Shown in pieces: positions 1,693 to 3,770 of a stretch of 64,000 nucleotides of DNA. A program made the translations under genes and the position numbers. Origin of the DNA: Gammaproteobacteria bacterium (GTDB lineage Bacteria > Pseudomonadota > Gammaproteobacteria > Pseudomonadales > JADFDG01); assembly GCA_018262975.1 (NCBI GenBank), contig JADFDG010000016.1, positions 1-64,000 on the forward strand, given 5' to 3'. The first letter of the stretch is position 1. Every line of letters starts with the position of its first letter. The notes beneath the pieces were generated by a model, which did not search any database, was not told where the DNA came from, and worked only from the letters and a program-made list of their open reading frames with translations.

Positions 1693-1787
1693 GTAGCGAG
1701 GGGCCATGCCCCCGACGCTCTTGCCCTTCGTAGAGAGGGGGCCATGCCCCCGATGTTTTCGGGTCGGGGGCATGGCCCCCTTTCTAC
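1693..1787. repeat. REP cluster A: three GTAG-type REP copies (1693-1715 +, 1730-1753 +, 1764-1787 -)
   Basis: GTAGCGAGGGG(G)CCATGCCCCCGA and its reverse complement TCGGGGGCATGGCCCCCTTTCTAC. Confidence 0.9.
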
Positions 1788-1808: not shown

Positions 1809-3770
1809 TCATTCCTTGCGTCGCCGCTGCGCGCGCCACAGGAAGCGGGCCGGCCGCAGCGCATCGGCCACCTCGCGATCCACCGGCAACGGCTCGCCGT
1901 TGGCCTGCGCGGCAATCATCGCAGCGCCCAGCAGCGAGAAGGCAATGCCCTTGGCACCCAGCGCGGCCAGCACGTACAGGCCCGGCAACTCGCTGATCGT
2001 GCCGTCCTGTTCGCGGGCCAGCGGCCCGATCACCGGCAGGTAGTCGGGGGTCTGCGTGCGGAAGCCGGTGCGCCCGCCGGTGACCCTACAGGCGTCACCA
2101 CCCAGTGCCGCGTGCAGCGACGGGCAAGCGGCGGCGAGGTTGCCGATGTTCTCCTCATGGTCCGCATTCCGCACGCTGGGATCCGCATCGCGCGGCGCGA
2201 ACGTGGCGCCGACGCAGTGCAGCAGATCGCCGTGATCGTCACGCGCCGGTGTCACGTAACCTTCGTGGCAGACCACCGCGCGCAGGTCGCGCGAGGCGTC
2301 GGTGGCACGCACGTGCGTGACCTGGCCGCGCACGCGGCGCAGCGGTAACGACGTTGCGGGTGCAAAGGTGGTGGCCGCCAGCGCATTGGCAATCACCACG
2401 GCGTCGAACGACGTGCCGTCCACGCAGGGGCGGTCGCCGTCGTGGGTGATGTCCCGCACCTCCGTCTGCAGGCGCACATCGATGTTCGCGTGCATCGCCA
2501 GTGCCCGGCACAGCGCCGGCGGGTGCACCCAGGCGGCGCCTGCGAACCACAGGCCGCCCGCGGGCATCGATGCGCCGCACAGTGCGCCGGCTTCCAGCGC
2601 ATCGACATGGCGCAGCACGTCGCCGGGCCAGCGGCCAGCCGCCGCGATCGCGCGCAGCTTCGTGTCGTCCTCGTCGCTGGCCGGCAACTGCAGCAGGCCG
2701 CAACGCGACCAGGCGTGGCTGTCCGGCTCGCCGAGCAGTTGCGGCAGGCGGGCGAGGGCATGCAGGTAACTGTCACGGTACCAGCGGTTCTGTGGTGTTT
2801 CGTGCAGCGAGAATTTCGGGTACACGGCGCCGGCCAGGTTGCCGCTGGTCTCGCGGGCCAATTGCGCGTTGCGTTCGAACAACGTCACCTGCCAGCCGCG
2901 CCCGGCAAACTCGCGTGCCGCCGCGCAGCCGGCCAGCCCGCCGCCCACGATCGCCACCCGTCGCCCCGCACTTTGTAGCGAGGGGGCCATGCCCCCGATG
3001 TTTTTCTCATAGATCGGGGGCATGGCCCCCTCGCTACAGGAAGCAGCGCGGTGGCCGCGCAGCATGTCGCGCTTGCGGCCGAAGCCGGGGACTTTCCCTA
3101 CCGTGAATCCCGCGGCCGCCAGCCCGCGCCGCACGTCGCCGGCGGCGGTGAAGGTGGCGAAGGTCGCGCCGGGCGCGGACAGCCGCGCGATCTCGCCGAA
3201 CAGTGCGTCGTTCCACAGGTCACCGTTCTTCGCCGGTGCGAAACCGTCGAGGAACCAGGCATCCACCTGTGCCTCCAGTCGCGGCAGCAGCGCCGCGGCA
3301 TCGCCGAGCAGCAAGGTCAGCCGCACCCGCCCGTCGCACAGCGCGCGGTGGTGGAAGCCGGCCACCGCCGGCGGCATCGCGCTGCGCAGTTCGGCGGCCA
3401 GTCTGGCCAGCGAAGGCCAGTGCGCCTGCGCGCGCGCCAGGTCATCGGGCGCCAGCGGGAATTTTTCCGTCGACACGAAGTGCAGCACGCTGCCTGCCGG
3501 TGCCTGCGCGAGGAAAGCCTGTGCCGCCACCAGGAAATTCAGCCCGGTGCCGAAGCCGGTCTCGCCGATGGTGAAGGCATGGAAGCCGCCGGCGGCAAAG
3601 CGCGCCGGCAGGTCGTTGCAGTCAACGAATACGTGCGTGCTTTCCGCCACGCCGCCGTCCAGCGAAAAATACACGTCGCCGAAGGCGCGCGACACCGGCG
3701 TGCCTTCGCGCCAGTCGAGTTGCGCGGTGTCGACGCGGTCGGGGAACGGGGGCAGGGGCAGTCTGGACAT
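1809..3770 (-). CDS. mnmC: bifunctional tRNA 5-methylaminomethyl-2-thiouridine biosynthesis protein MnmC (methyltransferase + FAD oxidoreductase)
   Basis: N-terminal MnmC2-like domain (FGTGLNFLVA..., WFLDGFAPAKNGDLW) and C-terminal FAD domain (VAIVGGGLAGCAAA). Confidence 0.92.
   Translation of the reverse strand: MSRLPLPPFPDRVDTAQLDWREGTPVSRAFGDVYFSLDGGVAESTHVFVDCNDLPARFAAGGFHAFTIGETGFGTGLNFLVAAQAFLAQAPAGSVLHFVSTEKFPLAPDDLARAQAHWPSLARLAAELRSAMPPAVAGFHHRALCDGRVRLTLLLGDAAALLPRLEAQVDAWFLDGFAPAKNGDLWNDALFGEIARLSAPGATFATFTAAGDVRRGLAAAGFTVGKVPGFGRKRDMLRGHRAASCSEGAMPPIYEKNIGGMAPSLQSAGRRVAIVGGGLAGCAAAREFAGRGWQVTLFERNAQLARETSGNLAGAVYPKFSLHETPQNRWYRDSYLHALARLPQLLGEPDSHAWSRCGLLQLPASDEDDTKLRAIAAAGRWPGDVLRHVDALEAGALCGASMPAGGLWFAGAAWVHPPALCRALAMHANIDVRLQTEVRDITHDGDRPCVDGTSFDAVVIANALAATTFAPATSLPLRRVRGQVTHVRATDASRDLRAVVCHEGYVTPARDDHGDLLHCVGATFAPRDADPSVRNADHEENIGNLAAACPSLHAALGGDACRVTGGRTGFRTQTPDYLPVIGPLAREQDGTISELPGLYVLAALGAKGIAFSLLGAAMIAAQANGEPLPVDREVADALRPARFLWRAQRRRKE
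2975..3037. repeat. REP cluster B: convergent REP pair inside mnmC (2975-2998 +, 3014-3037 -)
   Basis: GTAGCGAGGGGGCCATGCCCCCGA ... TCGGGGGCATGGCCCCCTCGCTAC, within the mnmC reading frame. Confidence 0.95.

Follow-up and report, generated by a model that had tools for sequence, protein, structure and literature searches.

An in-frame pair of GTAG-class REP sequences between the two catalytic domains of MnmC in a gammaproteobacterium

The 64,000-nucleotide stretch of DNA that we analysed (the window) contains mnmC, a gene for a bifunctional tRNA-modifying enzyme, within which two exact copies of a 24-bp REP sequence lie in opposite orientation and are read in frame as part of the linker between the two domains of the protein. 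We consider it probable that this pair, belonging to the GTAG class and to a RAYT-linked family, was inserted into the inter-domain linker of MnmC and is tolerated there.

The mnmC gene and the REP pair within it

Judging by its sequence, the mnmC product is a bifunctional MnmC, predicted to act in mnm5(s2)U34 formation: both of its domains match family models above the curated cut-offs, the full-length protein scores 678 bits against NCBIfam NF002480 (bifunctional MnmC, cut-off 540), and it matches the Pfam families DAO and Methyltransf_30 as well as the PDB entries 3awi, 3ps9 and 3pvc (E about 1e-106). The features of the locus, in window positions, are as follows.

1809-3770, minus strand: mnmC, bifunctional tRNA mnm5(s2)U34 methyltransferase / FAD-dependent oxidoreductase, 653 aa (ORF list, NCBIfam, Pfam, PDB)
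3048-3770, minus strand: N-terminal MnmC2 (SAM methyltransferase), residues 1-241 (NF033855, 237.6 bits, cut-off 136, residues 25-241)
1809-2960, minus strand: C-terminal MnmC1 (FAD oxidoreductase), residues 271-653 and the stop codon (TIGR03197, 361.6 bits, cut-off 174.2, residues 271-650)
2974-3038, minus strand: perfect 26-bp inverted pair with a 13-nt spacer, MnmC residues 245-266, long mRNA hairpin predicted
2975-2998, plus strand: REP copy 1, GTAGCGAGGGGGCCATGCCCCCGA, with the GTAG head; forms the downstream part (..IGGMAPSLQ) when read on the mnmC strand
3014-3037, minus strand: REP copy 2, same sequence as copy 1, inverted; read as CSEGAMPP on the mnmC strand

The sequence and the open frame bear out the preliminary description, according to which two exact, oppositely oriented REPs lie inside the 653-codon gene with neither a stop codon nor a frameshift. 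On the plus strand the perfect inverted pair reads TGTAGCGAGGGGGCCATGCCCCCGAT (2974-2999), then the spacer GTTTTTCTCATAG, then ATCGGGGGCATGGCCCCCTCGCTACA (3013-3038). By codon arithmetic, the pair encodes MnmC residues 245-266, CSEGAMPPIYEKNIGGMAPSLQ, and this peptide falls between the end of the methyltransferase match (residue 241) and the start of the FAD match (residue 271), which agrees with the earlier assignment of the repeats to the inter-domain linker. The pair is situated away from the N-terminus, the flanks are coding on both sides of it, and the codon usage of both flanks favours the mnmC frame. Shortly past the stop codon of mnmC (window 1695-1787) there are three more REP copies, one of them degenerate.

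An artefact of sequencing or assembly at the repeat might be suspected in a 29-contig draft genome with hundreds of near-identical REPs, but we regard it as hardly credible. The consecutive domains of MnmC stand in one frame on both sides of the pair, an arrangement that misjoining at a dispersed repeat would not produce, and several other genes of the genome display the same in-frame REP pattern. Besides, the 65-bp pair is shorter than an ordinary sequencing read.

On the mnmC strand each REP copy provides an ATG in frame, and the upstream one is preceded by the purine-rich GAGGGGG. This central ATG of the REPs could theoretically serve as an internal start yielding a separate FAD domain in addition, a case of gene fission. 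We find this very improbable: the ATG is buried in the stem of the palindrome, and the mnmC frame is continuous.

The REP family and its RAYT

The 15-base core GGGGGCATGGCCCCC has 21 matches in the window at up to two mismatches, against 0.61 expected from shuffled sequences. Throughout the 3.3 Mb genome the 24-base REP occurs in 292+274 (~566) copies at up to three mismatches, while the reversed control pattern gives 0 copies in the same 3.3 Mb. In the 1.58 Mb sampled for clusters, 82 of the 190 REP clusters are plus-minus pairs. The unit thus has the properties that define the GTAG class: a palindrome within 20-40 bp, a GTAG end, dispersal, high copy number and many inverted pairs. The genome has a single detected RAYT gene (Y1 transposase, PF01797; 46.7 bits, cut-off 23) at G000:C25:134513-134851, which is bracketed by inverted REP pairs at 134341/134386 and 134932/134977 (region G000:C25:134341-135000). 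When 391 other genomes of the order were searched, the REP had matches in only two, each a single copy with two mismatches, and therefore the family appears to be private to this lineage within the genomes compared. In the sampled genome stretches (e.g., L147:3213-3236), the gene preceding a REP often ends in frame with the TAG of the GTAG head, which seems to serve as the stop codon of that gene; other REPs supplying the stop codons of preceding genes are reported in PMC3733652.

REPs inside genes are not new. High-copy GTAG palindromes, many of them in inverted pairs, were described by Di Nocera et al. in 2013 (PMC3733652), who found some of them, in several species, entirely within genuine ORFs. 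In the account given there, more than half of the intragenic inserts are dimers or groups that encode 20-30 residues, the targets include tRNA pseudouridine synthase genes, and tolerance of such inserts in linkers or loops is proposed. The mnmC case resembles these in being a GTAG palindrome pair placed in frame in a genuine ORF, namely in a tRNA-modification gene; it differs in the REP family, the genome and the targets (mnmC and, as shown below, mnmE), although the full list of targets in that paper may include mnmC. Since intragenic GTAG REPs have already been described (PMC3733652), ours is clearly a fresh example of a phenomenon first catalogued in 2013.

A better-known in-frame case is that of the Rickettsia palindromic elements (RPEs), inserted in unrelated functional genes (PMC10969869). 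RPEs are about 150 bp long and comprise several families, and shorter R. conorii elements have CGTC ends (PMC3733652). The mnmC repeat is likewise a palindromic repeat in frame within a functional gene; unlike RPEs, it is 24 bp long, has a GTAG end, is mostly intergenic in its genome and has a REP-flanked RAYT there. Its identity with RPEs is ruled out, given a 24-bp GTAG unit against a CGTC end or a length of about 150 bp.

The inter-domain linker: insertion or replacement

The AlphaFold2 model of MnmC, built with 31 aligned sequences, has a mean pLDDT of 91.3, and the values drop below 50 only at residues 1-6 and 249-264, the latter segment being within the REP peptide. The linker is accordingly predicted to be disordered, and its variability is seen in its length of 26-51 residues among relatives. 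In E. coli MnmC the linker was called "one of the most divergent segments"; the enzyme has two independent catalytic domains, whose active sites are about 45 A apart (PMC3648344). By analogy, a disordered insert between the two independent domains should be tolerated. As in the E. coli and Yersinia proteins (3awi, 3ps9, 3pvc), there are two domains in the same order joined by a divergent linker; unlike in those proteins, the linker of the window MnmC is REP-derived.

When measured from ML to GGG, this linker has 43 residues, against a median of 41 (26-51) in 55 distant relatives. Its length is therefore ordinary, and length alone proves nothing. The nearest MnmC in the order is 50% identical to ours, and the best named relatives about 45-47%. 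A contig search with the MnmC alignment recovered only relatives of about 37-47% identity, a contig search with the single MnmC protein gave no matches, and a search of viral contigs returned distant MnmC copies only. As the nearest relatives are only about 50% identical, a letter-for-letter empty site is lacking, and the ancestral linker length is deduced from the comparison below.

In a tree computed without the linker, the neighbour of the window MnmC is a family with an Alcanivorax sequence among its members (FastTree support 0.947, UFBoot 75), and we treat this placement beside a sister family as moderately supported. Of the 17 sequences of this family, 15 have linkers of 26-31 residues and the other two of 37; the REP peptide is found in none. 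The preliminary description expected about 22-24 residues to be missing elsewhere; this is roughly true with respect to the likely sister family and fails with respect to the distant relatives, in view of their median of 41. A deletion after VIGPL is common to the window MnmC and all sister-family sequences, while the other relatives shown are without it.

The REP pair could also have come together with the loss of a part of a linker of about 40 residues, including its P-W motif. The 43 residues are close to the median of the 55 relatives, the PW[FY] motif common in relatives' linkers is missing here, two sister-family members have 37-residue linkers, and taking out the 21 REP codons would leave a linker of about 22 residues, a little less than the observed minimum of 26. 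Nonetheless, we judge such a replacement unlikely, because most sister linkers are short, the full motif is mostly missing from them too, and the VIGPL deletion is shared; moreover, the MnmE REP of the same genome, discussed below, is an addition. Insofar as the sister linkers are mostly of 26-31 residues and the deletion is shared, it is more likely that about 21 residues were inserted into a short linker than that a part of a long one was replaced.

Other in-frame REPs in the same genome

REP-bearing genes were counted in stretches totalling 1.58 Mb out of 3.3 Mb. A REP was regarded as in frame only when the full ORF was stop-free and coding on both REP sides, as short flanks would mix in intergenic REPs. 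Within this 1.58 Mb, six confident genes, mnmC included, have an internal in-frame REP, and one more has it at the C-terminus. Besides mnmC, they are as follows (positions in the sampled stretches).

L155:7093-8499 (G000:C4:67093-68499), REP L155:8156-8179: MnmE, RGEGAMPPT in the G-domain loop between the NKAD and ISA motifs
L159:609-1532, REPs 922-1021: alpha/beta hydrolase, three in-frame REPs adding about 34 residues
REP L152:18958-18981: DUF1214 + sulfotransferase protein, REP between the two domains
REP L185:15720-15743: E2 acyltransferase, at or beside the lipoyl-domain linker
REP L202:9341-9364: RND pump, in a loop
REP L160:7428-7451: polysaccharide-biosynthesis family protein (the seventh gene), near the C-terminus

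An in-frame REP is thus not special to mnmC, being present in other genes of this genome and published for other species (PMC3733652). In MnmE, an earlier enzyme of the tRNA U34 modification pathway that includes MnmC, the REP-bearing segment has 39 aa against 23-30 aa in 29 relatives, all of which lack a REP, so that by sequence comparison the REP is a clean addition of residues. In MutS, a degenerate REP-like stretch with four mismatches occurs in frame near the C-terminus (L205:1658-1681; G000:C29:101658-101681); it is doubtful and may be due to chance. A match in an MsbA-like gene (C3:31074, four mismatches) was dropped as probably fortuitous, and that at C4:246 was excluded from the count, since the acyl-CoA dehydrogenase-like protein encoded there probably starts only downstream of it.

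In six of the seven REP-carrying genes, the peptide encoded by the leading REP is (R/C)(S/G)EGAMPP. Since one REP is stop-free in five of the six reading frames, the bias has p = 0.0004 under equal use of these five, a value that is post hoc, comes from seven cases and presumes frames that may be unequally available. The REP family may represent a mobile element compatible with coding, by which protein linkers and loops are lengthened time and again, mostly in this one reading, either because the peptide is harmless and flexible or because of insertion-site preference; we put this forward tentatively, as a rather doubtful generalization.

The preliminary description also spoke of an exapted linker peptide, which implies a selected role. 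Either the peptide or the mRNA hairpin might indeed be under selection, e.g., for domain spacing or for ribosome slowing during co-translational folding. The pair is placed precisely between the two domains, its 26 bp can all pair in the predicted fold of the 126-nt region (-88.5 kcal/mol against -52.3 +/- 4.0 in shuffles), and the recurrent (R/C)(S/G)EGAMPP reading would be in line with selection too. The hairpin may possibly affect translation between the MnmC domains. However, such a very stable hairpin is not specific to mnmC, because any inverted REP pair forms one; the linkers of relatives, 26-51 residues long, are unrelated, and the frame bias is subject to the above reservations. Exaptation seems to us improbable, the more so as a tolerated insertion suffices.

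Proposed origin of the MnmC linker and its significance

As to the course of events, the insertion would most likely have begun with a REP pair of the resident family, mobilized in trans by the only RAYT of the genome and landing in the region that encoded a short inter-domain linker of MnmC. As a single REP is stop-free in most frames and the frame was kept, about 21 residues would have been added to the linker. This insert, rich in Gly, Pro and Ala and predicted to be disordered, has left both independently folded catalytic domains intact, and full-length MnmC should be made despite the REP. The insertion would be near-neutral and would persist simply by being tolerated, without any need for a selected role.

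The mnmC REP provides a clean example, in a known structural context, of a dispersed palindrome that became coding sequence between two catalytic domains. The six genes with internal in-frame REPs, among which MnmC and MnmE belong to one tRNA U34 pathway, make up a small natural set for studying which sites of proteins accept insertions and which REP frame is retained. If the coding-compatible reading of the REP family is true, REP mobility would be a source of variation of protein linkers under frame-specific selection.
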